From Gemmobacter sp. 24YEA27 (lineage in GTDB: Bacteria; Pseudomonadota; Alphaproteobacteria; Rhodobacterales; Rhodobacteraceae): a DNA stretch of 64,000 nt. Shown piece by piece: positions 21,535 through 47,949 of this stretch. Positions within the stretch are counted from its first letter, which is position 1; each line of letters starts with the position of its first letter. Made by a program: the position numbers and the translations under genes. The stretch is taken from assembly GCF_030052995.1 (NCBI RefSeq), contig NZ_JASJPW010000001.1, forward strand, positions 3,400,001-3,464,000. The letters are read 5' to 3'. The notes under the pieces are model-generated. The model was given only the letters and a program-made list of their open reading frames with translations, was not told where the DNA came from and did not search any database.

Positions 21535-22032
21535 ATGGGTGAACCGACAGAGTCTGGTGCTGTGCTGACGCCGAAGCAAGAGGCCTTCGCCCTCGCTTAT
21601 TTCGAGACCGGTAACGCCGCCGAGGCTTACCGCCGCGCCTATGATGTGGCCGAAAACGCCCGCGATTCATGGGTCTATGTCGAGGCCTGCCAACTCCTCG
21701 ATCACCCTAAGATTACCCTAAGGCTCGAGCAGCTTCAGGAGCAGGCTGCAAAGCTCTCCATCTTTACCCGCCAGAAGGCGCTGGAGGAGCTGGAGCAGGC
21801 CAGATCGGAAGCAATCAAGCTCGGCATGCCGGCCGCTGCCGTCAGTGCGATCAACAGCAAGGTGAAGCTGTTCGGGCTGGATGCGCCGACCAAGATCAAG
21901 GCTGAGGTGACCGGCAAGGATGGAGGCCCGATCCGGTCGGAAGAGGTGACCGCCCGTGACCGCATCGCTCGCCGAATTGCTGGCATCGCAGCCAGAACAG
22001 ATGCGCCTGGAGATACTGGCGGGGCTGAGTGA
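21535..22032 (+). CDS. Phage terminase small subunit
   Basis: 165 residues of the Terminase_2 type. The N-terminal region LTPKQEAFALAYFETGNAAEAYRRAYD contains the helix-turn-helix that recognises packaging sites. The middle has LLDHPKITLRLEQLQEQ and the C-terminal half is helical and charged. It partners with the large subunit, whose GTG start overlaps this gene by 77 bp. Confidence 0.9.
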   Translation: MGEPTESGAVLTPKQEAFALAYFETGNAAEAYRRAYDVAENARDSWVYVEACQLLDHPKITLRLEQLQEQAAKLSIFTRQKALEELEQARSEAIKLGMPAAAVSAINSKVKLFGLDAPTKIKAEVTGKDGGPIRSEEVTARDRIARRIAGIAARTDAPGDTGGAE

Positions 22033-23284
22033 CGAAGAGGCTGCGGCTCTCGAATACGACTGGCAGTTCTGGGCACGGAAGAACCAGATTGCCCCACCCG
22101 GTGAATGGCAGACCTGGCTGGCGCTCGCTGGTCGCGGTTTCGGTAAAACAGAGGCCGGCGCGCAGTGGGTTCGCCAGAGGGTAGCGGAAGGCGCCCGATC
22201 CATCGCCCTTGTGGCGGAGACCCAGAAAGACCTTGAGGAGGTCATGGTTGCCAGGTTGGTGAAGATCCACCCGCCCGGCGAGGAGCCGAAGGTCAGATAC
22301 AAGCCGGTTCGGGTGATCTGGCCGAATGGTGCGATTGCCCTCGGCTACAACGGCACCGAGCCGAACCAGCTGCGCGGCCCCGAGTTTGATACCGCATGGG
22401 TCGATGAGCTGGCGAAATACCGTTACGCCCGCGAAACATGGGATATGCTGCAATTCACGATGCGCAGCGGGCCAGACCCGCGCGTGTTCGTCACCACCAC
22501 GCCCCGGCCGATCCCGGTCCTGCGCGAGATCCTCGCAGACAAGACTACCGTCGTCACGCGAGGCTCGACATTCGATAACGCGGGCAACCTGCCCAAATCG
22601 TTCCTGACCAAGCTGAAGGCGAGATACGAAGGCACGCGCCTCGGGCGGCAGGAACTCAATGCCGAGATGCTGGACGATCTGCCCGGCGCGCTCTGGACGC
22701 GAGCGATGTTCGATGCGCCCGATGGCAGCGGCCAGATCGGCAGGGTGATCAAAGCGCCGGATCTGCAACGGATTGTGGTCGCGGTCGACCCCTCCGGAAC
22801 CGGCGGGTCGGGAGATGGCGGAGACAGCATCGGGATCGTGGTGGCGGGCCTTGGTGTCGATGGTCGCGGCTATGTGCTGGCAGACCGGACCTGCAAGCTT
22901 TCGCCGGCGGGATGGGGCAGGCGGGCCGTCGAGGCCTTCCACGAGTTCTCAGCCGACCGGATCGTCGCTGAGCGCAACTTTGGCGGCGCGATGGTTGAGC
23001 ATGTGATCCGAACCACGGATGCCAAGGTCGCATACAAGGAAGTCACCGCCAGCCGCGGTAAGGTCGCCCGGGCCGAGCCGGTTGCCGCTCTCTACGAGCA
23101 AGGCAAAATCAGCCATGTCGGGGCCTTCCCCGATCTGGAGGATCAGTGCTGCCTGATCGGGCCTGATGGCTTCATCGGCGAGGGCAGCCCCGACCGGGCC
23201 GACGCGCTGGTATGGGCACTTACGGAATTGATGCTGGGTGATGGGCCGCGCCGCGCTGCCGTAATCGAAACTGGCTTCTACTGA
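21956..23284 (+). CDS. Phage terminase large subunit
   Basis: DNA-packaging motor of 442 residues, similar in type to the gene-transfer-agent/Terminase_6 large subunits common in Rhodobacterales. ATPase domain: Walker A LAGRGFGKTEAG, Walker B TAWVDELAKY, coupling motif VFVTTTPRP. Nuclease domain from about residue 270, with IVVAVDPSGTGG and later acidic residues (SPDRADALVWAL). It appears complete. The portal gene that should follow is cut after ~45 codons, so the motor has no head to fill. Confidence 0.92.
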   Translation: MTASLAELLASQPEQMRLEILAGLSDEEAAALEYDWQFWARKNQIAPPGEWQTWLALAGRGFGKTEAGAQWVRQRVAEGARSIALVAETQKDLEEVMVARLVKIHPPGEEPKVRYKPVRVIWPNGAIALGYNGTEPNQLRGPEFDTAWVDELAKYRYARETWDMLQFTMRSGPDPRVFVTTTPRPIPVLREILADKTTVVTRGSTFDNAGNLPKSFLTKLKARYEGTRLGRQELNAEMLDDLPGALWTRAMFDAPDGSGQIGRVIKAPDLQRIVVAVDPSGTGGSGDGGDSIGIVVAGLGVDGRGYVLADRTCKLSPAGWGRRAVEAFHEFSADRIVAERNFGGAMVEHVIRTTDAKVAYKEVTASRGKVARAEPVAALYEQGKISHVGAFPDLEDQCCLIGPDGFIGEGSPDRADALVWALTELMLGDGPRRAAVIETGFY

Positions 23285-23292
23285 GGGCGGAC

Positions 23293-23427
23293 ATGCAAGA
23301 TATCACGATCCGCCACCCGCAATACGATGCCTTCGCCGAAAGCTGGCGGCAGGTCCGCGATGCCAATGCAGGCGAGGACGATATCAAACAGGCGGGCGAG
23401 CGATATCTGCCCATGAAATCGGGGCAG
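23293..23427 (+). pseudogene. Phage portal protein, N-terminal fragment
   Basis: The first ~45 codons (HPQYDAFAESWRQVRDANAG then AGERYLPMKSG) match the N-terminus of DUF4055-type portal proteins, which begin HPEY...WRxxRD...AGxxYLP. After about 23425 the similarity ends abruptly and another phage sequence begins, so about 90% of the portal gene has been deleted. Confidence 0.65.
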
Positions 23428-23585
23428 GCGGCCATCTCATTATCGCCGCCATCTGCATCGCAGCCTGGTTCACACACATTATCACATGCCTTTCGGTAGG
23501 CCTTTGGGGCTTCCTGATTGCCGGTGCGCTGCTTTTCCCCATCGCCATCGTTCATGGGGTCGGCATTTGGTTTGGGGCGTTCTGA
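23427..23585 (+). pseudogene. Small membrane protein lacking its start
   Basis: The frame GGHLIIAAICIAAWFTHIIT continues with a second hydrophobic stretch (GFLIAGALLFPIAIVHGVGI) and a stop at 23585. It reads as a two-helix phage membrane protein but has no start of its own; it is joined to the portal fragment at the deletion point. In frame and composition it belongs with the following early-region gene. Confidence 0.5.
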
Positions 23586-23586
23586 C

Positions 23587-23775
23587 ATGAGCCGCAAACT
23601 GATCGACCTCGCCCGTGACGCCCTTCGCGAAGCCTATGCCGTGCAGGCGTCCGATCTGGCAGCAAAGGCCCATGCGCGCCGGGCGTTGACCGCTCGTGGG
23701 CATGATGAGGCTGCGGTGTCGGATGCAGTCGAGGCGGCGTTTGCGCGCTGGTTTGACGTGTCGGAGGCCTGCTGA
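23587..23775 (+). CDS. Small hypothetical phage protein
   Basis: 62 residues from the ATG at 23587 (the downstream part of a longer frame), helical and Ala/Arg-rich (MSRKLIDLARDALREAYAV ... EAAFARWFDVSEAC). It is coupled at its stop (TGATG) to the integrase remnant. It is typical of short genes just before a phage integrase. No function assigned. Confidence 0.55.
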   Translation: MSRKLIDLARDALREAYAVQASDLAAKAHARRALTARGHDEAAVSDAVEAAFARWFDVSEAC

Positions 23776-24512
23776 TGCCGACCATGGTCCTGCGCGATCC
23801 ATCCCACGTTGACGCTCTGGCGCGCCGCCTGTCAGGGCGCAAGCTTCAACGGGCGATATGTCGTCATGTGGAACGAGGGCGGAAAGCGCCGACGCTTTCG
23901 TCTTGACGCACACACGACCAAAGAGGCGGAGCGCGAAGCCCGCGATCTGATCATGCAGCAGACCGCGCCCTCTCAGGGGGTGACGGTTGCGCAGATATCC
24001 GGCTGGCGATGCTGCTAATGCTGACGACAGCAGGCCGTATCGGGGCAATTCTGGAACTGACCTGGGACCGCGTTGACCTGTCGCGCCGAACAATCCGGCT
24101 GGCAAGCAACGAAATCGGCCCCCGCAAGGGCCGAGCTACCGTGCCTATCAATGACACACTGATCGCCGCACTACAGAGCGCAAAGGCGGCTGCAATGTCG
24201 GATTTCGTCGTGGAATGGGGCGGGCGTCAGGTCGGCTCTATCAAGACCGGCTTCAATGCCGCCGTAAAGCGCGCGGGCATCGAGCACTGCACTCCACACG
24301 ATTTGCGCCGCACCGCCGGCCGCTTCATGGCCGAGGCCGGGGTGACCATTGACGAGATTGCGCAATATCTCGGCCACACGAACCCCAGCGTGACCCGCAG
24401 CACATATGCCCGATTCTCGCCGGATCACCTGCGCCGCGCAGCAGGTTCGCTTGAGCTTGGCGGTGTGAGATTGGTTCATCGAACCAGAGGGAAAACCCCC
24501 AAATCCTCATAA
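23775..24512 (+). pseudogene. Tyrosine-recombinase integrase with frameshift and internal deletion
   Basis: It starts at ATG 23775, then shifts frame near 23840 into NGRYVVMWNEGGKRRRFRL (the N-terminal arm-binding domain). At about 24003 it jumps directly into the catalytic domain: GRIGAILELTWDRVDL (first Arg), HDLRRTAGRFM (HxxR), YLGHTNPSVTRSTYARF (His and catalytic Tyr). The core-binding domain of roughly 100 residues is missing. Its stop lies 14 bp before the att core at 24526, the normal place for an integrase. It is not related closely to the intact integrase of element B. Confidence 0.85.
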
Positions 24513-24525
24513 GCCACTGATTTTA

Positions 24526-24540
24526 TGGTGATCCCGACAG
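24526..24540. repeat. att core between elements A and B
   Basis: TGGTGATCCCGACAG is identical over 15 bp to the 3' end of the tRNA-Arg gene at 47873-47887 and in the same orientation, as expected for the direct repeats left by site-specific integration. Confidence 0.9.
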
Positions 24541-24615
24541 AATGGAAATAACCATTATGTTTCAATTACATGAATGGTAAACGCCCACCCTGCACCCCTT
24601 ATGAATTTCAAGGGC

Positions 24616-24882
24616 TTACGAAGAGCCTTGTAAACAGGCTGACGCCTGCTCACTCTCCATCGAAGCAACTTCAGAAAGTCTGGCGGGCTGAAAGCCCGAC
24701 CAGACGTGATCCCCGGCCACGACCAGCGGCCCCTGTCGCGAGCCCGCGATTCGGGCCAGCCGCTCGACCTCATCCGGCCAGTCAGCCCCTGCCCGCTCCT
24801 CATAGGCCAGCCCTGCCCGATCCAGCGCGCGTTTCGTCGCAACGCACGGGCCACAGCCCGGCGAGGTGTAGAGGATGATCAT
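24616..24882 (-). CDS. Glutaredoxin-like (NrdH-type) protein
   Basis: 88 residues with the thioredoxin-fold start MIILYTSPGCGPC; the CGPC redox pair is at residues 10-13. ATKRALDRAGLAYEE follows, and a cis-Pro region seems replaced by GPLVVAGDHVWSGF. Such small disulfide reductases often serve ribonucleotide reductase in phages. It lies immediately inside the left att site; decayed relatives occur at 12590-12785 and in 13090-13165, so it belongs to the element family. Confidence 0.85.
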   Translation of the reverse strand: MIILYTSPGCGPCVATKRALDRAGLAYEERAGADWPDEVERLARIAGSRQGPLVVAGDHVWSGFQPARLSEVASMESEQASACLQGSS

Positions 24883-24908
24883 GGTGTTGGTCCGTCTTTG
24901 AAGGTGGA

Positions 24909-25145
24909 TCAGAGGCCGGTGTAGCCAGAAGGCGTCATGATTGGCGCGGGCGGTGCAGCTTCAGGCATCAGCATTTCGACAAGCGCTGGCGCGCCGCGCC
25001 TCCCGCAATGCAGGCATTTCATGATGGCGAGGGCCTCGGCACGGATGGCCCGGCCGCCCGGTTCAAGCCATTGCGGCGGCATATCGTCGGCCGCCAGATG
25101 GCGAGATTGCCCGCAAGAACATTTGAGGTGAAAGATCCGCTTCAT
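24909..25145 (-). CDS. Small zinc-ribbon-like protein
   Basis: 78 residues from the ATG at 25145. Two Cys pairs (CSCG near residue 8 and CLHC near residue 44) suggest a zinc ribbon; the C-terminus is Pro-rich. Divergent from the next Cys-pair protein. Function unknown; possibly a regulator or a nucleic-acid-binding phage protein. Confidence 0.55.
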   Translation of the reverse strand: MKRIFHLKCSCGQSRHLAADDMPPQWLEPGGRAIRAEALAIMKCLHCGRRGAPALVEMLMPEAAPPAPIMTPSGYTGL

Positions 25146-25198
25146 GGTGAGAACATATACAGAACATTTAACGATTCGAGAAGCCCGGAACCGGCCAT

Positions 25199-25513
25199 AT
25201 GCCCTCTGTCCATCCATCGGCCAACCCCTTCCAGAACCGGCGGATGATCCACGCCGCGCAGGACGGCATGATCATCACCATGCGGTGCAATGGCTGCAGG
25301 CGGAGCGTTCACTTCTGGGCATCCGATCTCGTGAAAGTCGTCGGCAATGATCACCAGCTGCACATCGCACCGTGGCCATGCGCGCGGTGCAAAAGCACCG
25401 AGTCGATCAGTGTCTCCTGGCGAGTTCCTTCACCCGACTTCCTGAATGGATTGACCATCCGCCGTCCGGTCAGGCAGGTTGTGAAATGGCTATGGCGCAA
25501 CGAGAAGGCCTGA
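25199..25513 (+). CDS. Small Cys-pair (zinc-finger-like) protein
   Basis: 104 residues as listed, or ~90 if it starts at the Met at 25241. CNGC and CARC pairs about 35 residues apart would bind one zinc. Between them lies HFWASDLVKVVGNDHQLHI; a basic tail (RRPVRQVVKWLWRNEKA) follows. It ends 2 bp before the SRAP gene, so the two are cotranscribed. Confidence 0.6.
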   Translation: MPSVHPSANPFQNRRMIHAAQDGMIITMRCNGCRRSVHFWASDLVKVVGNDHQLHIAPWPCARCKSTESISVSWRVPSPDFLNGLTIRRPVRQVVKWLWRNEKA

Positions 25514-25515
25514 CG

Positions 25516-26136
25516 ATGTGCAATCTTTACAGCCAGACCACCTCACCCGAGGCGATGCGCCAGATCTTTGCCGGGCTGACGAACGCCGCCGGCAACATCG
25601 AGCCCGGCGATATCTACCCGGATCGCATGGCGCCGATCATCACTGCCGGAGAGGGAGGGCATGTTCTGCGCAGCGCCCGGTGGGGCCTGCCCTCCCCGCC
25701 TCAGTTCCACAGCAAGAGCGGCATCGATCGCGGCGTCACCAATGTGCGCAACACCAACTCGCCACACTGGCGGCGCTGGCTGGGTCCGCCGCATCGCTGC
25801 CTAGTGCCAGTCGAGAGGTTCGCGGAGCCGCGCCAGGGCAAGGGCGCAGGCAATGCGTGGTTCGCGCTGAAAGAGGATCGCCCGGCGTTCTTTGCCGGTA
25901 TCTGGGTGCCAGACTGGACGAGCATCCGCAAGCTGAAGGACGGTGAAACCACCGATGACCTCTTCGCCTTCCTGACCTGTGATCCGAATGCGGAAGTGGC
26001 AGCGATCCATCCGAAAGCCATGCCGGTGATCCTGACGGAGCCGGATGACTGGGAAGAATGGCTGGTAGAGCCGTGGACAGACGCCAGATCCTTACAGGGT
26101 CCACTGCCGGCCGGATCTCTGGAGGTCATTGAATGA
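25516..26136 (+). CDS. SOS response-associated peptidase (SRAP/HMCES/YedK family)
   Basis: 206 residues. The catalytic Cys is residue 2 (MCNLYS), exposed after Met removal. TNVRNTNSPHW and CLVPVERFAEP (conserved acidic residue) line the active site, and HPKAMPVIL supplies the His. Family members form thiazolidine crosslinks with abasic sites in single-stranded DNA. A phage copy may protect replicating phage DNA. It is coupled to a tiny lipoprotein gene by ATGA. Confidence 0.92.
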   Translation: MCNLYSQTTSPEAMRQIFAGLTNAAGNIEPGDIYPDRMAPIITAGEGGHVLRSARWGLPSPPQFHSKSGIDRGVTNVRNTNSPHWRRWLGPPHRCLVPVERFAEPRQGKGAGNAWFALKEDRPAFFAGIWVPDWTSIRKLKDGETTDDLFAFLTCDPNAEVAAIHPKAMPVILTEPDDWEEWLVEPWTDARSLQGPLPAGSLEVIE

Positions 26137-26234
26137 TCCGGATGACCGCCCTCGCGTTCTTCATCGCCCTCTCAGGCTGCGGCCCGTTGGATTACTACAG
26201 CGGGCGCAACATGGAGTTCTATCACGCTGGATAG
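26133..26234 (+). CDS. 33-residue lipoprotein
   Basis: A short gene ATGA-coupled to the SRAP stop. Signal sequence MIRMTALAFFIALSGC with a good lipobox (LSGC), then a 17-residue polar tail. It is probably a lipid-anchored peptide exported by the prophage. Known functions of similar peptides range from superinfection exclusion to lysis (Rz1-like); nothing here decides. Confidence 0.55.
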   Translation: MIRMTALAFFIALSGCGPLDYYSGRNMEFYHAG

Positions 26235-26524
26235 CCCGGACCTCATCAACAGCCGGTTTGAGTCAGGGACGATCAGGCTGGGGGTGAACCAGCCGCATCC
26301 AGGGTTCTTTGATCGAGGGTGAAGTCCCTACAACCTAACCGCAACCTATATACATATATCAGCCTTTCTGCCCGAAACATGACGGCGACAAAACCAGAAC
26401 ATGGAGGAACGTATGCTTGCCACACACACCCTTGTGTGCATAATGCATGCGCCGCGAAGCCAAACTGCGACGCGGCGACCAGAAGGCGCATGAACGTGAA
26501 TGAAGCAGAACAGAAAGGGCGCCC

Positions 26525-27058
26525 ATGACTACTTTCGTGCTACCGACAGGTTTGGGTGCGCCCAAGCACTCCATCGAGAGTTTTGCTGAGTATGCGGCAG
26601 AATACTGGGGTTACCAACCCGGCGGATCGCTCGAAGAGATTGTGGCGAAAGCCGGAGGTCGTATTGTCGTTGGCTCAAGCGGGTTCGAAGATGGGGAAAG
26701 CGGATCCATCGTCGCCAAGGCATTAAACGACTTCACGATATACATATCAAGAAACACATCCCGCCAGAGGGATCGCTTCACCATTGCTCATGAGCTTGGC
26801 CATTTAACTCTTCACTTGGGCCCCATACTGGAAGCGAATCCGGGGGCAGTGATGAGGGCAACACGATGGGTAGACGACAATGACCCAGAACAGCAAAGAG
26901 CGGAATGGGAGGCTAATTGGTTCGCAGCAGCCTTCCTGATGCCAAAAGAAAAGTTCACTGAAACGTATAGAAATTTAGGACTTCAGGGAACCGTCGACCT
27001 ATTTGATGTTAGTGAATCCGCAGCAACAACTCGAGCAAGAACCCTTTCATTGACTTAG
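26525..27058 (+). CDS. ImmA/IrrE family metallo-endopeptidase
   Basis: 177 residues. It has the zincin motif HELGH at residues 89-93 and the downstream glutamate region AEWEANWFAAAFLMP (127-140), which together complete a gluzincin-like site. In characterised members (ImmA of ICEBs1, IrrE of Deinococcus) the protease cleaves a repressor. There is no XRE repressor beside it; instead a nucleotide-cyclase-like gene follows after 7 bp on the same strand. The region is clearly AT-richer than flanking phage genes, suggesting separate acquisition. Confidence 0.9.
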   Translation: MTTFVLPTGLGAPKHSIESFAEYAAEYWGYQPGGSLEEIVAKAGGRIVVGSSGFEDGESGSIVAKALNDFTIYISRNTSRQRDRFTIAHELGHLTLHLGPILEANPGAVMRATRWVDDNDPEQQRAEWEANWFAAAFLMPKEKFTETYRNLGLQGTVDLFDVSESAATTRARTLSLT

Positions 27059-27065
27059 ATTAATT

Positions 27066-28244
27066 ATGAACCTTAATCCGCCCAAATACCGCCTACGTTT
27101 ATTCCTTTCTGTTGACTTGGTTGGATCAACCGCCTTCAAGTCGAGGGCTGGTAACTCAAATCTGAAATGGATAAAGGCATTTCAGAAATTTTACGCCGAA
27201 TTCCCGGATCACTTAACTAAGAATTTCAAGGAAACTGCAGGAGGTATCGACGAAATCGCGGGAAGCGAAATATCGTACGAACCAAAGGTGTGGAAGACTA
27301 TTGGTGATGAGATACTATTCGTCACCCGCGTCAATAGCGTGACGCATTTAGGTGCTTGCATTACTGCCTTCTCCAAAACATTGATTGATTTTGGCAGGGT
27401 CATCTCTAGCTTCGGCTTGGACACAAAAGGAAATGCGTGGGTTGCCGCATTTCCAACTCCAAACATGAGCATTAAGCTCGCTCAGAGTGGATCTGATCCG
27501 CTGACTGGCGATGCATCACTGCCCTCGGAGGAACGGGAACTCCTAGTAGACGCGACACCAAGCCAATATGATTTCTTGGGCAAAGGTATCGATGGTGGAT
27601 TCCGCATCTCTAGAAACTCATCGATCGATGACCTAACATTATCCCCTGCTCTTGCTTACTTGCTTTGCAAAGCTAAACGCATGACCGACGTCACCAAGTT
27701 TGACGCTAGGTTCAGCTTTCATGAACCACAAGTATTCAAAGGCGTAGTAAATGGTGCGAGGTACCCTGTTGTATCTCTAAGCACCAGTCGAGACGTAAAT
27801 GCAGATAAAATGAGGCAGCTGGAAGCAACGCTACTTCAGAAACCCGCAGAAGCGAGGACCGACGAGCTTCTTGATTATCTTGAGCGCTTCATTGCACAAA
27901 ACGATATCGAGGCCCCTGTTTTGAAATTGACAGATCATTCTCCAGACCCGAAGCCACCACCTCACTATGAGGCATATGTGGAAGAGTGGAAGAGAGATTT
28001 CGATGACCTGATATCCACACAAAAATTAGAAGAAAAATCAGCCAATGCTGGACGTGATGAAGCCGCTGACGGCTCGGCGGATAACAGCAATTCCGATGGC
28101 GGCGCCCCTAACGGAAGCCAGCACTGGTCAGGCATGATGGATGAGGCAAAAAGAGCACTTGAGGCTGCAATGCGCATCCGAAATGATTATTCAGAAGAGA
28201 TCCACCGCATCCTCGGAACCAACGCTAGCGGTAAGCAGAATTAG
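27066..28244 (+). CDS. Class III nucleotide cyclase-like protein (Pycsar-like candidate)
   Basis: 392 residues. The N-terminal ~190 residues show the class III adenylate/guanylate cyclase plan: LFLSVDLVGST with metal-ligand D17, VWKTIGDEILF with K77 and metal-ligand D81, and GKGIDGGFRIS where the usual N..R catalytic pair becomes D176..R180. A helical region to ~330, an acidic/Ser-Asn-Gly linker and a short C-terminal helix follow. There is no membrane or receptor domain. Pyrimidine cyclases of Pycsar defence systems are standalone class III enzymes, but their usual partners are TM or TIR effectors; here the only neighbour is the ImmA-type protease. Nucleotide specificity cannot be read. Confidence 0.75.
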   Translation: MNLNPPKYRLRLFLSVDLVGSTAFKSRAGNSNLKWIKAFQKFYAEFPDHLTKNFKETAGGIDEIAGSEISYEPKVWKTIGDEILFVTRVNSVTHLGACITAFSKTLIDFGRVISSFGLDTKGNAWVAAFPTPNMSIKLAQSGSDPLTGDASLPSEERELLVDATPSQYDFLGKGIDGGFRISRNSSIDDLTLSPALAYLLCKAKRMTDVTKFDARFSFHEPQVFKGVVNGARYPVVSLSTSRDVNADKMRQLEATLLQKPAEARTDELLDYLERFIAQNDIEAPVLKLTDHSPDPKPPPHYEAYVEEWKRDFDDLISTQKLEEKSANAGRDEAADGSADNSNSDGGAPNGSQHWSGMMDEAKRALEAAMRIRNDYSEEIHRILGTNASGKQN

Positions 28245-28256
28245 GGCGCTCTTAGC

Positions 28257-28490
28257 TCACCATGGCCAAACCCGAGTTGGAACCTGACCGATATTGCTCC
28301 GCACAACCTTGGCGATGATCGAAGTAGCCGCCCCTTGGTAACGACCAGATCTCCGCAGACACACTTGGTGTGGTGGCGTCGCACCGGGCGATAATGTGAT
28401 TGCTGTTGAGGCTGATCGCTCCTTGGCGACACGCAAATATCGCCCCTCCAGCCCGATCAGAAAATCAGCTGGCGGGGCCACATCCCGCAT
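28257..28490 (-). CDS. Small hypothetical protein
   Basis: 77 residues from the ATG at 28490, overlapping the end of the lipoprotein gene. MRDVAPPADFLIGLEGRYL begins it; the rest is basic with few acidic residues. It is the only plausible reading of the 220 bp between the cyclase stop and the lysis genes, but coding character is weak. Confidence 0.35.
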   Translation of the reverse strand: MRDVAPPADFLIGLEGRYLRVAKERSASTAITLSPGATPPHQVCLRRSGRYQGAATSIIAKVVRSNIGQVPTRVWPW

Positions 28491-28680
28491 CAATCAGCGC
28501 GATCAGCCGCGCCCCGCTCACCACCGACCGATCATCCGGCGACACCGCAAGGGCCGCTGCATGATCGGCCCGCGCCGCCCTCGACCCGTCGCAGATCGCC
28601 TCACCGCTGGTTTGCGTCCCGCTCACGCATGAGCCGGCGGGCAGCATCAGGATCAGCGCCATGAATTTCAGTGTCCGCAT
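28465..28680 (-). CDS. Rz1-like outer spanin lipoprotein
   Basis: 71 residues. The signal peptide MRTLKFMALILMLPAGSC ends with a lipobox-like AGSC; the mature part is polar. Gene order endolysin - holin - small TM protein - lipoprotein on the minus strand fits a spanin pair with the overlapping upstream gene. In spanin systems the lipoprotein bridges to the inner-membrane partner to fuse the two membranes at lysis. Confidence 0.6.
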   Translation of the reverse strand: MRTLKFMALILMLPAGSCVSGTQTSGEAICDGSRAARADHAAALAVSPDDRSVVSGARLIALIDAGCGPAS

Positions 28681-28831
28681 CGATCATTCCCTTCAGGGTT
28701 TTGCCGTAGCCTTCCGCTGCTTCCAGCGCGGCCTGCTGCTTTGCGCTCGCCCGGCCACGCCACCACACTGCCAGCAGGGCCAGCAGCACGGCGACGGGCT
28801 TCCAGAGCGCGGCGAGGATTGCGCGGATCAC
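28601..28831 (-). CDS. Rz-like inner-membrane spanin candidate
   Basis: 76 residues from GTG 28831, coupled to the holin stop. One N-terminal transmembrane helix (ILAALWKPVAVLLALLAVWW) is followed by a charged helical periplasmic part (RASAKQQAALEAAEGYG). It overlaps the lipoprotein gene by 80 bp in another frame, a typical Rz/Rz1 overlap. Confidence 0.65.
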   Translation of the reverse strand: MIRAILAALWKPVAVLLALLAVWWRGRASAKQQAALEAAEGYGKTLKGMIDADTEIHGADPDAARRLMRERDANQR

Positions 28832-29109
28832 TGCCGCGCCCTCGGGTTGGCGGTATAGGGCCGCGCTGACCCAGCCCGCTGCTGAGCGATCACCAGCGCC
28901 AGCAGCGGTGCGATCCGCAGCATCCACCCCTCGATCACCACGGGGTCACCACCGAACAGCCAGCCGATCAGCGTGGCCACCGGCGGCACAAGGGCGGGAT
29001 CAGAGGCGACGGCCGCCACGATGTTCACTGCGAGATCCAACACGATCAGCAGCGAGGGGAAGATCCCGAGCCAGAAGCTGCGGGTCCAGAGAATGAAGAT
29101 CGGGCGCAT
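28828..29109 (-). CDS. Holin-like phage membrane protein
   Basis: 93 residues with hydrophobic segments at about 10-35, 40-55 and 62-78 and a charged C-terminus. It sits directly downstream of the endolysin and is translationally coupled to the Rz-like gene. A second holin-like protein of another family occurs at 32118-32444, so one of the two may be an antiholin or a relic. Confidence 0.65.
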   Translation of the reverse strand: MRPIFILWTRSFWLGIFPSLLIVLDLAVNIVAAVASDPALVPPVATLIGWLFGGDPVVIEGWMLRIAPLLALVIAQQRAGSARPYTANPRARQ

Positions 29110-29110
29110 G

Positions 29111-29650
29111 TCAGGCTCCTTTCAGCGAGGCGAGGCAAAGGCGCTGCTCATCGACGCGCCGGTTGGTCAGGCCCCTGACCACCTTGCCGCCGGCCTTGTT
29201 CCATTTCGGAAGCTCGTTGCAGGCGGCCACCCAATCCCCGGCATTCGCCCGCTTCGCCAGCGTCGAGCTGCAGGCCGCGCCGGCGCCGACATTGTAGGTC
29301 CAGCTGGTCAGCGCGACCTGGACGCCCTGGGGCTGCTGCGAGAGCCCGGGAACGCATTTGACCAGCTGAGCATAATATCCGGCCAGCGAGGCGGTCAGCA
29401 TGTCGAGGCATTGCTTCGGGGTGTAGCTGTCACCTTGCTTTACGCCCTTCGTCTCGCCGTAACAGACGGTCCAGACCGCCGGGACAGCGATGCGGTCGAG
29501 ATAGGCCTCTGTCCGCTCGCCCTCCCAGGGCGCCACGAAAATGGCGGCTGCGGCCAGCATGGCCGTGAGGCCGCCTGTGGTAGTGGATTTCGGGCGCGCA
29601 CGGAAAAGCGCACCGATCCGGGCCAGAAGCCCGGTCAGGAACTGGATCAT
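29111..29650 (-). CDS. Phage lysozyme (GH24) with N-terminal SAR-type anchor
   Basis: About 179 residues from the ATG at 29650 (GGAG site). A hydrophobic, Ala/Gly-rich segment (GGLTAMLAAAAIFV) looks like a signal-arrest-release anchor. The catalytic block WEGERTEAYLDRIAVPAVWT then supplies the Glu and Asp/Thr of the E-D-T triad, with CYGET next. The C-terminal lobe is SWTYNVGAGAACSSTL...RGLTNRR. It degrades peptidoglycan at lysis. Confidence 0.92.
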   Translation of the reverse strand: MIQFLTGLLARIGALFRARPKSTTTGGLTAMLAAAAIFVAPWEGERTEAYLDRIAVPAVWTVCYGETKGVKQGDSYTPKQCLDMLTASLAGYYAQLVKCVPGLSQQPQGVQVALTSWTYNVGAGAACSSTLAKRANAGDWVAACNELPKWNKAGGKVVRGLTNRRVDEQRLCLASLKGA

Positions 29651-29673
29651 GTCGATCTCCATGTTTGGATGTG

Positions 29674-29700
29674 AAAAAGCCCCGCTGCATGGTGGGGCTT
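29674..29700 (-). terminator. Minus-strand terminator upstream of the lysis genes
   Basis: AAGCCCC / GGGGCTT stem with an A-run at 29674-29678 (T-tract on the minus strand). It would stop transcripts entering the lysis block unless antiterminated; a NusG-like antiterminator is encoded at 36960-37559. Confidence 0.75.
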
Positions 29701-30017
29701 CGCTGGGATGAGGCGGCATTTCAGGAGTGGCGAGCTTCCGTTATACGGCGGTTGCTACCGTTTGCAGCTGCAGCACGGAAATTGCATGCGCCTAAGCACG
29801 CTCGCCCCCAAAAGAAGGTGAGAAATCGGGCTGTCGCAGATGTGGCATAAAAGCCGCATCAACGCCGAGAATGCGATCATTCATATGACATGCCCTGATG
29901 GACATGTCTGGTCTCTTGCACGCGGAAAGCTACGTTCACCGAGTGCCGCAACACTATTGACTCCAATCAACCTTCGCCACAATCTCCGGGAGGCATTACA
30001 TTTTCTGGCGATATTCT
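29701..30017. other. Gap before the HEPN-like gene
   Basis: No supportable gene. It contains a short open frame (29840-30025) with doubtful coding character. The last 80 bp are AT-rich and probably hold the promoter of the plus-strand gene at 30018. Confidence 0.45.
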
Positions 30018-31217
30018 ATGAATGATCTGATACCTGCAGCGAATGTGGAACTCATGGCATCATCTGGTATGCCATCACTGCTCCGAAAGATAAGGCCACA
30101 GTGGCAAGCGAAATCTCTTATCGACAGAGTTAATAGGCTTGTTGGCGTGGATCCGAGTAGTGCCTGCCAGCGGCTTTTCAATGCTTCGATACACGACCTT
30201 CGGGAAAAGGTTATAATTGCAGGTATAGACATCGCGGGTGAAGCTGCAGAGCAGCACAAACTGCCACCCGTGCGTCGCGACGAAGATGTTGAAAACTACT
30301 CCGCTTCTAAGCTGATTGATCTCTGCTATCGAATGGGACTCCTAACTCGTCCAGAATGGCGAAGAGTAAGTCGGTGTTATGAAATTCGCAGAGATTTGGA
30401 GCACGAGGATGATGAGTATGAGGCAGGTATCGAAGACTGTGTGTACATTTTCACAACTTGCATAGAAGTCATCTTATCAGTTGATCCTGTCAACCTTCTC
30501 AAAGTTACGGACGTAAAGCAAATTGTCGAGAATTCCGTTCCTAGCCAGCCAGGTGATGAGCTTCTCGCCGATTTTGAAAGAGCTCCGCAGCCACGACAGC
30601 AAGAGATTTTAGGTTTTCTGGTGAGCATTGCTCTTGACAAGAAGCAATCAGACATCATTCAGCAGAATTCATTCAGTTTCCTCCACGCTTTCAGGCCAAG
30701 AGCAGCGAATCCAGTCTTGGTAAGCTTAGCGAGCAATTTTCAAGAAAGAGTAAATAGAAATAGCCTAGATGAACGCCATGCCAGAGTTGCAGCAGCATCT
30801 GGAGCTATGCCGTATCTCAAACAATCCGCAAGGCGAGATCTGTTTAATTCATACCTGCGCAGGTTAGAACAGATCGGAACTGATTGGAGCGCCCATGATC
30901 GACACGGTGACATTCTAAGGCAATTCAGCGATCTGGGTGGTTTTTCCAGCTGTCCAAATCCACCGCGAAAAGAGATTTTGACATGGATGGTGAAAACATA
31001 CATCGGAACACGCGGAGGATTAACTTCTTATGGAAATGTCAGGCATGTATTTTACAGCAATTCAGCGGCCCCTATTATCAAGGATATAATTACTTCAGAT
31101 TCGGATATAATCGGGAATGATCTTAAAGATCTTCGCAATGATGAGAAGATTAGTAGCCGCTGCGAGAATGAGCACATCGCTCGCAGGTTTGAAAAGCTAC
31201 TAGACCTTCTTGAATAG
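30018..31217 (+). CDS. HEPN-like domain protein, candidate abortive-infection/RNase factor
   Basis: 399 residues, all helical in character. Residues ~95-150 (SASKLIDLCYRMGLLTRPEW then CYEIRRDLEHEDDEYEAG) carry an R-x4-H motif (R124, H129) in the helix-turn context of HEPN domains, many of which are RNases in toxin-antitoxin and defence systems. The C-terminal ~250 residues have no recognised domain. The gene is AT-rich, on the opposite strand to the lysis genes and without a partner, which suggests a cargo gene. RNase activity is inference. Confidence 0.6.
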   Translation: MNDLIPAANVELMASSGMPSLLRKIRPQWQAKSLIDRVNRLVGVDPSSACQRLFNASIHDLREKVIIAGIDIAGEAAEQHKLPPVRRDEDVENYSASKLIDLCYRMGLLTRPEWRRVSRCYEIRRDLEHEDDEYEAGIEDCVYIFTTCIEVILSVDPVNLLKVTDVKQIVENSVPSQPGDELLADFERAPQPRQQEILGFLVSIALDKKQSDIIQQNSFSFLHAFRPRAANPVLVSLASNFQERVNRNSLDERHARVAAASGAMPYLKQSARRDLFNSYLRRLEQIGTDWSAHDRHGDILRQFSDLGGFSSCPNPPRKEILTWMVKTYIGTRGGLTSYGNVRHVFYSNSAAPIIKDIITSDSDIIGNDLKDLRNDEKISSRCENEHIARRFEKLLDLLE

Positions 31218-31338
31218 CGTTCTGTTCGTCTGAACTGCGCAGCCATCAGCAACTTGATCCAATGTCGCTGATGGGTCTTCTATCCCGGCCTCGGCCCCCT
31301 GAGCATTCCCTAAATCACCAGGCCTGTCCGGTCATAAA

Positions 31339-31370
31339 CCGCCCGCCCGGCACACTGACCGGGCGGGCGG
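31339..31370. terminator. Perfect 12-bp GC hairpin after the HEPN-like gene
   Basis: CCGCCCGCCCGG / CCGGGCGGGCGG with an 8-base loop. There is only a short A/T tail on either side, so it may terminate weakly in both directions or act as an RNA stabiliser. Confidence 0.6.
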
Positions 31371-31405
31371 ATTGAAAACTCAGGGCCACGCACCATATTC
31401 CGGGG

Positions 31406-31672
31406 ATGTTCGCTATCCCGTTCCATAAGCGCCTGCGAGACATGCGGGATCGGACAATCCGGACCCCGGATTACCGGACGGTCTATGCCCACGCGCCGAT
31501 GGTGGCGCATATGTCAGGCCGGCTTATCGCAGACGACCACCCAGGCTGGGCGAGGATCGAGGAAGCGGTGCAGGCCGCCCGAGCGGGCGATCTGTCGGCG
31601 CTGGACATCATCGAACGTGAAATCGGTCGGATGATGGGCGACGGCGTCAAGCCGCCTACCATCCAGGAATGA
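31406..31672 (+). CDS. Hypothetical phage protein
   Basis: 88 residues, start ATG 31406 after CGGGG. The basic N-terminus (FHKRLRDMRDRTIRTPDYR) leads to a helical acidic C-terminus (AQAARAGDLSALDIIEREIG pattern). No domain recognised. It lies between two hairpins and forms a separate cassette. Confidence 0.55.
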   Translation: MFAIPFHKRLRDMRDRTIRTPDYRTVYAHAPMVAHMSGRLIADDHPGWARIEEAVQAARAGDLSALDIIEREIGRMMGDGVKPPTIQE

Positions 31673-32926: not shown

Positions 32927-35842
32927 TCACATGCCCCGGATGGCGTTGATCACATTGCGCGCCATCAGCGCGTGACCGAGCCGGTTGGGGTGGAGGCCAT
33001 CAGCAAGGTATTTCCCGGCATCGAGGCGCGCGAAGGGGGCGAAGTTGTCGATCAGGTCGAGCGTGTTATCCTGCGCCGCCTCCAGCAGCATCTGTCGAAT
33101 GTCGCCCATCGTGCATTTGAAGTCCGGCGGCCCGTCCAGCGTCGGGCGATTGGCGCACATCATGATCAGTTTGGCGGTGGGCGAGAGGGTTTTCACCGTG
33201 TCGATCAGCGCCTGCGCATGTCCGCGCGCCTCGGACAGAGTATAGGACAGGTCCGGGCGCTTGCCCCGGTCATTGGTCCCGAGCTGGATGAAGATAAACC
33301 CATCCTCGGCATCAACCGCCAGACCATCGCCATGGCCGCCCGAGGTCAGCATATTGTTGCGATAGGTCATAAAGGACGTGCCGTTGATCCCCTGATTGGA
33401 AATCACGATCTGGCGGCGGAACTCGATGGCATAGGTGTAAAGCGACTGTGTCGCCCCGGCCCCGGCATTGTTCACCGTGCGGATCTCGATATTCGCATCG
33501 ACGGTATAGGCGGCAAGGGCATGGTGGCGGCGGGTGAGCGCGGTATTTCCATCCTCGCCCAGTGTGGTTGAATAGACACCGCCAAGCTGCACCCCATTGA
33601 CCCAGACAGTATAATCAAGACAGCCGGAGGCCAGTGCAGCAAAGCAGAACGTGAACTCTTTGCCCGTCATTTTGAAGGCATACTTGCCAGAGCTTGTGCC
33701 GCCAGATCCGTCAGTAAACCTATGCTGTGCGCCATAGGGATAGGCGGCGTTGTAAAGGGTCTGCTGCGTAAAGCTGCCCCCGGTGATGGTGACAGTGAAT
33801 TTCGGCCCGGCCGGGAACACCCCATCCGTGCGGGAGAAGGTCGCGATGCTTTCGCCCGAGGGGCTGGCGGGCCAATTCGAGAGGACCGGCGCGGCCCCAT
33901 TCGCATACTGCTTGCCGATCCAGCGTTTAAGCTCATTGGCCCAGGAGGCCGTGTTGTAAAGGTTCCTGGCATCCGAACCAGTCGCATCGCGCGGGGCGTC
34001 CGCGCCATTCTCGGGAAGCGTCTGGCCCCAGGTGATGCTGTCGCCCAGAAGGCTGATTTTCAGGTACTGGCGGAAGGGGTCACCAAGCGCGCGGGCCAGC
34101 TGTGCGATCTGCCTGCCGAAGCGCCAGACTGCCGCAGGGGCGTCGTCCATCTCACCCAGAACCAGAGTTGAGCGGGTCAGACCACCCACGGTGAAAAACC
34201 CGTTGACGTATTTATTGCCCGCCGGCAGCGCCGCGACCTGATACGTCCGTCCGCCGAGGTCGATCACCTGTCCGCTGACACGCGCCTCCATCCGCGTGAA
34301 CGCAGCATCAGCATTGCCAGAGGCCGGTACGTTATAGGCCTCGACCTGACGCACAAGACCCGTGGTCACCGCCCGCAAGCGCACCCCGCCCGGCGTCAGG
34401 ATCTCCCCGCCGGAGGCCAGCACCTCAAAGGACAGGCCCTCTTCTTTGATCCTGACGATTGTACCTGCCGTTACGCTGGATGGTGTGCCGGGCGTCCCCG
34501 ACGCCTCTGGCAGCTTTCCTGCCGCCCAGATCCGGGCGCAGATCGCCGCTGCCTCTGCGGCCTGTTCCTCGCCGGTCGCTACAACCTTCAGATCGCCATC
34601 CGCCTCGAAATCCCTCAACTGCGGCGCGATCTTCGGGCGCTGTTCAAAAACCGATGGCCGCGCCCAGGCGCGAACCCATAGCAGCCAGACCTTATCCACC
34701 TTGCGGCGTCCGAGAACTGCGAGGGCCGCAAGGTCATCTGCACCACCCCAGTCAACGCCGATGGTGCATACCTCGGACTGGTCGAGCAGCTCGTCGAGGG
34801 TCAGGCCGTCGCAGACCGCCTCTTCCCAGTGCATAGCGCCGGACCATGCCGAGCCGCCAAGACCAACACCGATTTCGATATTGAGATGCTGGCTGGCCCA
34901 GATCTGCTCCGCCTCTTTCGAGACCTTGCCGTTGTTGTCGTAATCGTCCTCGAGGGCCTGCTCATCAATCGAAAGGCCATAATTCGGCAGCACCAGCGGC
35001 CAGTTCTTCTTGTCGCGCCAATAGGACTTGTCGCGCTGCAACACCTCTGGAAACTCATAGAGAACCGGCAACATGATCGGCGACTTGCCGCCCTTGCCGT
35101 CCCTGATGGCGCGAGCCTTGTCCAATTCGGTCTTCCAGATCCCCGCCGGCGTTTCGTCCGACTGGGTGGTTATCATCAGCACTTTGCCGCGCTGCTTGGT
35201 GATGCCCCCACCCCGGATCTGCTGCATCACCTTCGCAGCCTTGGCCTTTTTCCCCAGCTCGTGAAGCTCGTCGAGGATGGTAAGCACCGGGATCTCCCCG
35301 GTCACAATCGAAGTATCGAAGGTTTTCACATCCAGCGCAGTGCCGGTTTTGCGCCGGGTGATCGTCTTCAGGTGCGTCTGCACCTTGAAGATGTCCACCA
35401 GAATGGGATCGAGATCGATCATCCCGGTGGCCTGGCCGAACAGGCGTTCCGAAATGTTCTGGCTGGGCCCCACCAGCAGCATCTGCCGGTTCGGCGCATC
35501 CTCCATGTAAAGCGCGGTCAGGCCGAGGGCCGCAGCATAGGTCGATTTCGAATTCTTCTTGGGCACCGCGCAAAGCAGTTCCCAGACCAGATCACGGTGC
35601 GTTTCCGGATCCTCGCTGGCAAGAAACGCCACCAGCAGATCCTTGAACCAGTCACCGCAGGCCGTGGCCAGCGGCGGATTTCCAGCGACATCGGGCAACC
35701 GCAGCCGGTTGAAGAAGGCCAGCACCTTCGCCGCCTTCTCCTGATTGAGCGGCACATCCGCCATCGGCGTTTCGCCACGCTGCAGCTTTTCCCACCAGTC
35801 CGGACAGGCAAAGCGCGGCAGCGGTTCAATGCCGTCGGGCAT
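32927..35842 (-). CDS. Terminase large subunit fused in frame to SGNH-hydrolase tail-fibre end
   Basis: An uninterrupted frame of 975 residues from TTG 35854, or 971 from the preferred ATG 35842 (GAGG site); numbering here is from the TTG. Residues 1-~450 are a Terminase_1 type large subunit: Walker A-like PKKNSKST (99-106), Walker B LTILDELHE, MITTQSDETPAG, and nuclease start TIGVDWGGADD (364-374). After AAGKLPEASG (~452) the sequence turns into a tail-fibre-like region (TAGTIVRIKEEG, TPGGVRLRAV). It ends with an SGNH esterase domain: GDSI at 604-607 (Ser606), GTND at 859-862, DGLHPN at 952-957 (Asp, His). The terminase nuclease domain is truncated. A deletion joining the first and last late genes is the simplest origin. 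Confidence 0.88.
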   Translation of the reverse strand: MPDGIEPLPRFACPDWWEKLQRGETPMADVPLNQEKAAKVLAFFNRLRLPDVAGNPPLATACGDWFKDLLVAFLASEDPETHRDLVWELLCAVPKKNSKSTYAAALGLTALYMEDAPNRQMLLVGPSQNISERLFGQATGMIDLDPILVDIFKVQTHLKTITRRKTGTALDVKTFDTSIVTGEIPVLTILDELHELGKKAKAAKVMQQIRGGGITKQRGKVLMITTQSDETPAGIWKTELDKARAIRDGKGGKSPIMLPVLYEFPEVLQRDKSYWRDKKNWPLVLPNYGLSIDEQALEDDYDNNGKVSKEAEQIWASQHLNIEIGVGLGGSAWSGAMHWEEAVCDGLTLDELLDQSEVCTIGVDWGGADDLAALAVLGRRKVDKVWLLWVRAWARPSVFEQRPKIAPQLRDFEADGDLKVVATGEEQAAEAAAICARIWAAGKLPEASGTPGTPSSVTAGTIVRIKEEGLSFEVLASGGEILTPGGVRLRAVTTGLVRQVEAYNVPASGNADAAFTRMEARVSGQVIDLGGRTYQVAALPAGNKYVNGFFTVGGLTRSTLVLGEMDDAPAAVWRFGRQIAQLARALGDPFRQYLKISLLGDSITWGQTLPENGADAPRDATGSDARNLYNTASWANELKRWIGKQYANGAAPVLSNWPASPSGESIATFSRTDGVFPAGPKFTVTITGGSFTQQTLYNAAYPYGAQHRFTDGSGGTSSGKYAFKMTGKEFTFCFAALASGCLDYTVWVNGVQLGGVYSTTLGEDGNTALTRRHHALAAYTVDANIEIRTVNNAGAGATQSLYTYAIEFRRQIVISNQGINGTSFMTYRNNMLTSGGHGDGLAVDAEDGFIFIQLGTNDRGKRPDLSYTLSEARGHAQALIDTVKTLSPTAKLIMMCANRPTLDGPPDFKCTMGDIRQMLLEAAQDNTLDLIDNFAPFARLDAGKYLADGLHPNRLGHALMARNVINAIRGM

Positions 35843-36344
35843 TGCCGGCCTCAAGATTCAGCTGGGCAGCCAGGGCGTCATCTGCATCCAGCGCCTTCTG
35901 CTCATCGACGATCTTCTTACCGACCTTCGGCTGCGCGCTGTCTTTCGGCTTCGCGGCCAGCTTACGCTCCGATTCCATCCGGTCATTGCGCTCGAGGAGT
36001 TGAACGAATAAGCGCTCTGCGCCGACATTCCCGGTCTGGGCATTGCTCCACACCCGCATCAGGCGCTCTGCATCGAGACGATCACGGGCTGCATCACGAA
36101 TCTGGAGCTCGGATCTAAAATGCCGCTTCAGCGTCGGCACCGAGATGGATTTCCCGGTGCGAGGATCGAGGATCACGCCCGCGATCCGCTCATTCGACCA
36201 ACCAGCCGCAAGCAACATACTGACTTTGTTAGAATTTTCTTCCGTCCACTCAAAAGCCGGGCGACCACGCCGCTTGTCAGCAGCCAGCCACGTCTCCCCA
36301 AAGAGGTTGCGGAAGCCCTCAGCCCCCAGATTTTCACCAGCCAT
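35826..36344 (-). CDS. Phage terminase small subunit-like DNA-binding protein
   Basis: About 172 residues from the ATG at 36344 (MAGENLGAEG). The start has no clear ribosome site and the frame is open further upstream. The helix-turn-helix region GRPAFEWTEENSNKVSMLLAAG is followed by IAGVILDPRTGKSISVPTLKRHF and then a helical part with GNVGAERLFVQLLE, the usual layout of this small-terminase type. It overlaps the terminase fusion start by 17 bp. Confidence 0.72.
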   Translation of the reverse strand: MAGENLGAEGFRNLFGETWLAADKRRGRPAFEWTEENSNKVSMLLAAGWSNERIAGVILDPRTGKSISVPTLKRHFRSELQIRDAARDRLDAERLMRVWSNAQTGNVGAERLFVQLLERNDRMESERKLAAKPKDSAQPKVGKKIVDEQKALDADDALAAQLNLEAGNARRH

Positions 36345-42043: not shown

Positions 42044-42098
42044 TCTGATTATTTCAGATCGTCAAGATCAGATTGCGATGCTGTTCGATTTTTTCAGA
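42044..42098. promoter_or_regulatory. Operators between cro-like and cI-like genes
   Basis: One perfect TCTGA-N5-TCAGA site lies at 42044-42058, one degenerate site (TTCGA-N5-TCAGA) at 42084-42098, and a half-site TCAGA at 42068. All sit in the 91-bp divergent intergenic region. The same palindrome recurs at 42581 and 42611. Confidence 0.78.
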
Positions 42099-42120
42099 TC
42101 AAACCGTTAGAAGTCGGGTC

Positions 42121-42426
42121 ATGGATATCGAAGAAAAAGAGCGCATCGCGCGCTTCCGAGACACATCTCCCGAAGCGATAGCGCTGCGGCTCCGCGCAGC
42201 CAGGTCACTTGTGGCCGAACAACAAAAAGACTTCGCCGCGCTACTGAACATCAATCCAAAGACCTACCACTACCAAGAAAAAACCGGCGCGCCATCATTC
42301 CAAGTGCTTGATTATCTCTACAGAAACGCCCGAGTGGGCCCAAACTTCGTCATCATCGGTGAGATGCTTCCGCTCCCCGGCGACGTTCAGCTCGCATTGA
42401 TAGCCGCTCTCCAGCGCGCCAACTGA
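42121..42426 (+). CDS. cI-like repressor (XRE-type helix-turn-helix)
   Basis: 101 residues from the ATG at 42121. RLRAARSLVAEQQKDFAALLNINPKTYH is an XRE-type helix-turn-helix, though the second helix is unusual. There is no C-terminal LexA-like protease domain, so induction cannot follow the RecA-dependent autocleavage route; cleavage by a separate protease such as the ImmA-type protein at 26525 is one possibility. It lies between the two operator clusters. Confidence 0.7.
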   Translation: MDIEEKERIARFRDTSPEAIALRLRAARSLVAEQQKDFAALLNINPKTYHYQEKTGAPSFQVLDYLYRNARVGPNFVIIGEMLPLPGDVQLALIAALQRAN

Positions 42427-46539: not shown

Positions 46540-46784
46540 TGGGGAAGCACGCACCAGTCAGCTACCAGCCCCGCTTGCTAGGGTCGCAAGAGGCCGCAAC
46601 ATATCTGGGCGTCAGCGAGACCACGCTTCGCGCGCTGGAGATCCCTCGCCGCATTATGGGCGGTCGCAAGCTATTTGATCGCCTCGACCTTGACCGATAT
46701 GCGTCTGAACTGCCCTATGAAGGCGACAAGGCAAATGCCGACGAGGTAGATCTTTGCGATCAGCATTTCGGATTGAAGCGGTGA
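46539..46784 (+). CDS. Excisionase-like helix-turn-helix protein
   Basis: 81 residues from the ATG at 46539. LLGSQEAATYLGVSETTLRA is a MerR/AlpA-type winged helix start, and IMGGRKLFDRLDLDRYASEL completes it. It overlaps the integrase GTG by 4 bp. Position and fold indicate the recombination directionality factor of element B. Confidence 0.8.
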   Translation: MGKHAPVSYQPRLLGSQEAATYLGVSETTLRALEIPRRIMGGRKLFDRLDLDRYASELPYEGDKANADEVDLCDQHFGLKR

Positions 46785-47872: not shown

Positions 47873-47887
47873 TGGTGATCCCGACAG
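47873..47887. repeat. att core within the tRNA-Arg 3' end (right end of element B)
   Basis: TGGTGATCCCGACAG, identical to 24526-24540. Left of it is phage DNA (integrase), right of it the rest of the tRNA, so integration kept the tRNA gene whole. Confidence 0.9.
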
Positions 47888-47949
47888 GACTTGAACCTGT
47901 AACCTGCCCCTTAGGAGGGGGCTGCTCTATCCAGTTGAGCCACGGGACC
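47873..47949 (-). tRNA. tRNA-Arg (anticodon CCT)
   Basis: On the minus strand from 47949: acceptor GGTCCCG pairs with CGGGATC, D-arm GCTC..GAGC, anticodon stem GCCCC/GGGGC around loop CTCCTAA (anticodon CCT), T-arm ACAGG-TTCAAGT-CCTGT, discriminator A and an encoded CCA. Its last 15 bases form the att core of elements A and B. Confidence 0.96.

Follow-up and report, generated by a model that had tools for sequence, protein, structure and literature searches.

A two-gene cassette, found across at least five phyla, that encodes an ImmA/IrrE-type protease and a divergent nucleotide cyclase of predicted class III fold

The window analysed here is a stretch of 64,000 nucleotides from Gemmobacter sp. 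24YEA27 (NCBI RefSeq assembly GCF_030052995.1, contig NZ_JASJPW010000001.1, positions 3,400,001 to 3,464,000 of the forward strand; positions below are those of the window), and within it lies a probable prophage that carries a gene for an ImmA/IrrE-type protease directly upstream of a gene for a divergent nucleotide cyclase. An initial annotation, made from the sequence letters, had read the two as a possible new signalling defence module in which a cyclic nucleotide would control the protease. Both open reading frames (ORFs) that it described are real and are spaced 7 bp apart, with the following parts:

26525..27058, + strand: ImmA/IrrE (Peptidase_M78) zinc metalloprotease, 177 aa, with a peptidase part and a small helix-turn-helix (HTH)-like part
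26789..26803, + strand: HELGH, protease residues 89-93, the zinc-binding/catalytic zincin motif
26903..26905, + strand: Glu127 of the protease (E.EAN.FA), kept in 92/92 paired proteases
27066..28244, + strand: divergent class III-fold nucleotide cyclase, 392 aa
27081..27788, + strand: catalytic domain of the cyclase (residues 6-241), which contains D17, K77, D81, D169, D176, R180 and K225
27789..28241, + strand: C-terminal extension of the cyclase, residues 242-392, made of helices and variable among relatives

The first gene product matches Pfam PF06114 (5.5e-18, 65.4 bits against a cut-off of 22), and it has both the HExxH motif and the downstream Glu of M78 peptidases. Across 92 paired proteases, the window's own copy included, the first His and the Glu of HExxH are each kept in 91/92 and the second His in 92/92; Glu127 is presumably the third zinc ligand. 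The initial annotation had seen the zincin motif and no nucleotide-binding domain, and both observations hold: there is neither a GAF nor a cyclic nucleoside monophosphate (cNMP)-binding domain in the protease, and residues 12-177 are covered by the match to the peptidase/HTH part of CapP. CapP and PprI have a C-terminal GAF-like sensor domain, whereas the 177-aa window protease has none; its structure matches stop at chain residue 178 of PprI (8sln) and at residue 183 of CapP's 278-residue chain. According to PMC10904395, PprI needs its GAF-like domain for activation by single-stranded DNA, and PprI lacking that domain still cuts, with no response to single-stranded DNA.

The second gene product does not reach the cut-off of any family in Pfam or NCBIfam (the sub-cut-off matches were to other families) and has no PADLOC match and, by phmmer, no PDB match; its PHROG matches are to phrog_18024 (2.5e-33), a family of unknown function, and more weakly to phrog_6174 (0.00018). 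The cyclase fold is kept in structure prediction and Foldseek identifies the class III cyclase homology domain, and by these two results a loss of the fold is ruled out. Eighty cyclase relatives searched against Pfam matched 22 families with one member each (best E 0.0023), and the match to Guanylate_cyc looked for as a mark of class III cyclases is lacking, with 1/80 matched (E 0.04). A set of 5.8 billion proteins contains no fewer than 552 relatives, counted as clusters at 90% identity (E 0.001, 7997 scored candidates); among the matches listed, 120 of the 552, none carries a Pfam domain in the precomputed annotation, and such names as are given for some of them read hypothetical or uncharacterized. 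The linked enzyme pair has likely gone unseen because its cyclase half is invisible to sequence profiles.

Class III cyclases use two metal-binding Asp residues, a specificity Lys/Asp, a transition-state Arg and a triphosphate-binding Lys, and the whole set is found in this family. In an alignment of 110 cyclases, the window's included, all of the residues singled out by the initial annotation are present, with D17, D81, D176 and R180 in 110/110 and K77 in 109/110; G80 and E82 are also invariant (110/110), and D169 and K225 are each kept in 103/110, with 7 Glu at the former position and 5 Arg at the latter. The D176/R180 pair, described earlier as unusual, is indeed there, and being invariant it is a signature of the cyclase family. 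An Asn four residues before the catalytic Arg is common, though not universal, in class III cyclases, and many of these enzymes carry Asn at the position where all of the aligned cyclases have Asp176. In Rv1900c, which also belongs to class III, that column holds His, in contrast to the invariant Asp of the window family, and therefore Asp176 alone does not exclude class III. A reading of K77/D169 as adenine specificity was dropped, since AnPycC uses a Lys near its second metal Asp (K104) for uridine triphosphate (PMC11224242). The protease and the cyclase are very probably both active enzymes, and we infer that the cyclase would act as a homodimer with a cyclic mononucleotide as its product.

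The protease gene lies directly upstream of the cyclase gene, on the same strand, in loci of several phyla, which bears out the recurrence named as a check on the initial annotation. The pair is present in 5/6 phage or plasmid records, in 27/29 viral contigs (one of which, L008, is the window's own sequence) and in 65/80 genome contigs, the last comprising 53 from Pseudomonadota, 6 from Verrucomicrobiota, 3 from Planctomycetota, 2 from Actinomycetota and 1 from Spirochaetota. A broken cyclase with a protease upstream (L078) was counted as a miss, and some paired loci are near copies of each other; among the non-identical cyclases of the three targeted sets, the window's own excluded, 91/108 are paired and 17 are not. 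Where places were selected by the cyclase only, 18/24 carry the protease, and at three of the six places without it (L133, L135, L137) the copy is broken or incomplete. The gap between the paired genes has a median of 0 bp, often with an overlap, as measured from mechanically assigned start codons. Conversely, 30 other M78 loci, drawn from a total of 39 places that includes the window's own, carry the cyclase in 0/30 cases within ~1.5 kb on each side. Chance adjacency was rejected on these locus counts (18/24 cyclase places against 0/30 other M78 loci), a comparison made without a formal expectation.

Protease and cyclase distances correlate across 68 loci (r 0.67, against a permutation maximum of 0.12, the permutation ignoring the carriers' shared ancestry), and in a tree with 15 other M78 proteins the paired proteases fall almost entirely on one side. 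The distance correlation, the nearly single-sided tree and the recurrent pairing together indicate that the pair is a coherent inherited unit. It is almost certainly one functional module and is best explained as a mobile two-enzyme cassette whose genes keep their operon order and are passed on together. Its carriers include Leptospira plasmids, phage LE1 (as Orf2-Orf1), a Mycolicibacterium plasmid, a Tistrella plasmid and predicted viral contigs. The cyclase family occurs in 21/398 sampled genomes of the phylum, the Gemmobacter genome included, and within the genus in that genome only, of 13.

The surroundings of the pair vary. Neighbour clustering (985 ORFs of at least 70 aa from 92 non-redundant loci, blastp at 1e-5, flanks of up to 6 kb) gave no widely recurring third gene, with the reservation that such clustering may overlook short or divergent genes. 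The largest clusters are integrase-like (9 loci), a large protein (5) and RelA/SpoT-like (5), with names given by inspection; among the clusters listed there are five more at 3 loci each, one of them Xre-type. Scans of the 114 nearest neighbours, of 217 eligible, returned 89 Pfam families, none in more than 2 members, and among the PADLOC matches listed at E 1e-15, 25 of 38 families, the commonest is a type IIG restriction-modification system (3 of 114); defence-island enrichment was not found among these 114, for which there is no control set to compare with. PADLOC on 80 cyclases yielded two weak single-member matches (E 0.0038 and 0.0065). The anti-phage function proposed by the initial annotation is unsupported, as is its direction from nucleotide to protease, whereas the enzyme classes, the fold, the co-occurrence and the non-Pycsar pairing that it put forward stand.

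The variable part of the cassette is the C-terminal extension of the cyclase, which includes a low-confidence segment at about residues 331-350 (predicted local distance difference test, by block). Cyclases without a protease beside them, here called orphans, mostly have a shorter extension, with a median of 84 versus 116.5 in paired cyclases; a separate Mann-Whitney comparison with no tree correction gave p 1.5e-5 (71 paired versus 9 orphans, the 9 wrongly including the contig-end row L064). In L029, L035 and L141 a NUDIX hydrolase domain (PF00293, each time above cut-off) is fused C-terminally to the cyclase and possibly clears the cyclase product. In L048 (5989-7353) the cyclase ends in a fused HTH_3 domain of Xre type (4e-13), and this is the kind of domain that relatives of ImmA cut. 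These sequence features are suggestive of the extension as a substrate of the protease.

ImmA-type proteases act on the products of neighbouring genes (PMC2701414, PMC10904395). In ImmA-ImmR, CapP-CapH and PprI-DdrO the adjacent substrate is an Xre/HTH repressor, whereas the adjacent partner here is a cyclase; the same difference sets the pair apart from CapH-CapP, the HTH repressor and protease associated with the cyclic-oligonucleotide-based anti-phage signalling system, and across the 92 loci neither a recurring immune operon nor a recurring DdrO-like neighbour lies beside the pair. We propose that the protease, as ImmA does on ImmR, PprI on DdrO and CapP on CapH, would act on the product of the neighbouring gene, which here is the cyclase, and that cutting or binding of the variable extension would switch cyclase output on (or off). 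The trigger would be a stress on the cell or on the mobile element, and the altered cyclic-nucleotide level would then work through host receptors, which are proposed because no receptor gene was found travelling with the pair. This direction is favoured because the relatives of the protease cut a next-door repressor and the cyclase is the sole constant neighbour found; we give it a probability of roughly 0.4, and the sequence evidence fits it at least as well as control of the protease by a nucleotide. The fuller proposition, that in at least five phyla, with prophages and plasmids among the carriers, the ImmA/IrrE-type protease is a direct switch of the divergent class III cyclase and works by cutting the extension, and that the switch is used against phages, is doubtful when taken as a whole.

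Several observations weigh against action of the protease on the cyclase. Orphan cyclases make up 12 of 110 tree rows (two more rows, at contig ends, could not be scored), so the cyclase can persist alone. The difference in extension length comes down to only 3 supported independent tree contrasts, a number that cannot reach significance, and the ranges overlap (79-239 in paired versus 58-112 in orphan cyclases), with some paired cyclases being short (L042, 79). The fusion of an HTH domain to the cyclase was seen just once. The substrate could instead be a repressor encoded outside the cassette: HTH/XRE genes are annotated within ~3 kb of the pair in the Leptospira plasmid locus L001, an Xre-like neighbour cluster is common to 3/92 loci, and short or divergent HTH genes can be missed by the clustering. 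In the window itself, a small ORF at 42073-42426 (+) reads by inspection like an Xre-type prophage regulator, with no PHROG match, and is a candidate substrate outside the pair.

In the opposite direction, the cyclase would be the sensor of infection or stress, and either its product or the cyclase in nucleotide-bound form would activate the protease, which would then cut a host or phage target. The near-invariance of both active sites agrees with this, and as the protease has no GAF-like sensor of the kind found in PprI, its activator must come from elsewhere, with the cyclase, its only constant partner found, as the obvious candidate; yet the protease also has no GAF or cNMP-binding domain to receive a nucleotide, no third gene recurs as a target across the 92 loci, and the known action of ImmA-type proteases is on the products of neighbours (PMC2701414, PMC10904395), all of which makes this direction unlikely. 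A role in the life cycle of the element or in stress, and not in defence, is a tentative possibility; the pair would tune cyclic nucleotides, or the protease would cut the repressor of the element, and in this way genes of the prophage, the plasmid or the host would respond to damage. It suits the presence of the pair in phage LE1 near a ParA-like gene, on Leptospira plasmids and in predicted viral contigs, and also the control of ICEBs1 and of stress regulons by ImmA proteins (PMC2701414), the mostly non-defence character of the scanned neighbours, the Caulobacterales orphan relative near relA/spoT and the HTH genes near some pairs. However, the sporadic distribution (21/398 phylum genomes, 1/13 in the genus) and the changing neighbours resemble conflict cassettes, and no repressor gene recurs beside the pair. 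Because the purposes (defence, element control, stress) cut across both directions, the confidences given to these explanations overlap and do not sum to one.

Tight gene order, frequent overlap, partly mobile DNA and changing surroundings are also what one would see in a toxin-antitoxin-like or abortive defence system, in which a cyclase toxin would drain the nucleoside triphosphate pool or flood the cell with cNMP and the protease would restrain it; the NUDIX fusions hint at nucleotide clean-up. Against this, chromosomal loci of Caulobacterales retain orphan cyclases with no protease beside them, and the pair has no DNA-binding antitoxin; we consider such a system quite unlikely. Very improbable is a variant of the pyrimidine cyclase system for antiphage resistance (Pycsar) making cyclic UMP or cyclic CMP. 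The likeness consists in the fold, that of a standalone class III cyclase, and in the location in accessory DNA; the Foldseek matches include AnPycC (8jsz; E 7.1e-6, rank 47). The two PycC examples, AnPycC (F60/D62) and EaPycC (F100/D102), have a bulky residue, Phe, two positions before the first metal Asp (PMC11224242), whereas the cyclase here has Ser15, a Ser in 108/110, and adds a C-terminal helical extension. A Pycsar effector is gated by cNMP, whereas the partner here is an M78 protease; no transmembrane or TIR cyclic-nucleotide effector recurs across the 92 loci, and PADLOC finds nothing for the window protein and two unrelated weak matches in 80 relatives. Pycsar membership was rejected on the pocket residue and the partner, in agreement with the initial annotation, which had recognised no Pycsar effector in the protease.

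A parallel in published conflict systems is found in the vWA-MoxR-associated protein (VMAP) ternary systems, which, as described in PMC7159879, combine a cNMP cyclase with trypsin/caspase peptidases in one system, as a cyclase and a peptidase are combined here, but with other proteases and multi-domain vWA/MoxR machinery. The main texts of PMC7159879 and PMC13092281 name ImmA and IrrE 0 times, and the available portion of PMC2701414 lists phage LE1 among the carriers of COG2856 operons and leaves the cyclase unmentioned. No report on the protease-cyclase pair was found in a search by titles and abstract starts (best matches only), which leaves its absence from print unproven. Because the named features of Pycsar and of the ImmA-repressor systems are lacking and no literature match was found, we rate the pair as likely a new sort of module, assembled from enzyme classes that are already known. 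Should one of the two enzymes control the other, in either direction, the pair would join ImmA-type proteolytic switches with cyclic mononucleotide signalling, which have so far been treated apart, and the favoured direction, if true, would amount to proteolytic control of second-messenger synthesis. The cassette is compact (~1.7 kb, two genes) and hence directly testable.

The 12 orphan cyclases occupy at least three supported places in the tree (six on the best tree). A Caulobacterales-like group has a relA/spoT-like neighbour, and several of its members also have pyrE- and pdxJ-like genes (names by inspection); orphans near relA/spoT-like genes are L075, L077, L109, L111 and L119, and by neighbour clustering also L091 and L097. 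This group is possibly a housekeeping version of the cyclase family, with possible (p)ppGpp interest. Sphingomonas paeninsulae (L004) also has a cyclase without a protease, and in L004 (3998-6443) and L116 (5998-8422) short orphan cyclases are convergent with a PP2C/SpoIIE-like phosphatase gene, annotated as PP2C family in L004, with which the L116 gene clusters; L139 groups with both on the tree. The other orphans are L112 from Magnetococcales, L098, L108 and L026; in the last, a C-terminal part that is NUDIX-like by inspection ends early, and an integrase-like gene lies just upstream.

Returning to the window, the elements that delimit the probable prophage are:

24526-24540, strand not applicable: probable attL (left attachment site), 15 bp that repeat the 3' end of tRNA-Arg, with the second copy at 47873-47887
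46754-47836, + strand: prophage integrase (phrog_1, 1.3e-22), adjoining tRNA-Arg
47873-47949: tRNA-Arg, beside the integrase

The pair lies ~2 kb inside the left end of this prophage, as bounded by the 15-bp repeat. The prophage setting proposed earlier is supported by the integrase beside tRNA-Arg, by the repeated tRNA 3' end and by the presence of genes for a terminase and an endolysin. As also described earlier, the pair is AT-rich (GC fraction 0.44-0.52 at 26500-27999 versus 0.55-0.69 at 24000-26499 and 28000-29999) and stands on the strand opposite to the lysis genes, with the lysozyme gene (29111-29719) on the other strand. Another part of this genome holds a remnant in which the stretches that match 24690-24884 and 28477-28765 are ~0.3 kb apart, compared with 3.6 kb in the window; this short spacing fits a cargo insertion of the pair, or could alternatively be a deletion in the remnant. 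A clean empty site was not found, there being no long match to either flank outside the genome itself among 149 sampled genomes of the family (best 74% over ~470 bp).

Other genes of the region complete the picture of the prophage. A 975-aa ORF at 32927-35854 (-) has a terminase large subunit at its N-terminal side (phrog_9, 2e-60, residues 36-426) and continues in frame into a C-terminus with matches to phrog_14083 (residues 702-972) and to tail proteins; it looks like a deletion of intervening genes, and the prophage may be defective. A further low-GC stretch (30000-31499, GC 0.46-0.52) accompanies a second low-GC cargo ORF of the prophage at 30018-31217 (+; 399 aa, phrog_27609, 1.8e-16), which has no Pfam, NCBIfam or PADLOC match and none in annotated phages. 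Just outside the probable attL, the stretch 21956-24512 (+) holds a further terminase large subunit along with a fragment of an integrase, and may be what is left of a second prophage adjoining the first.
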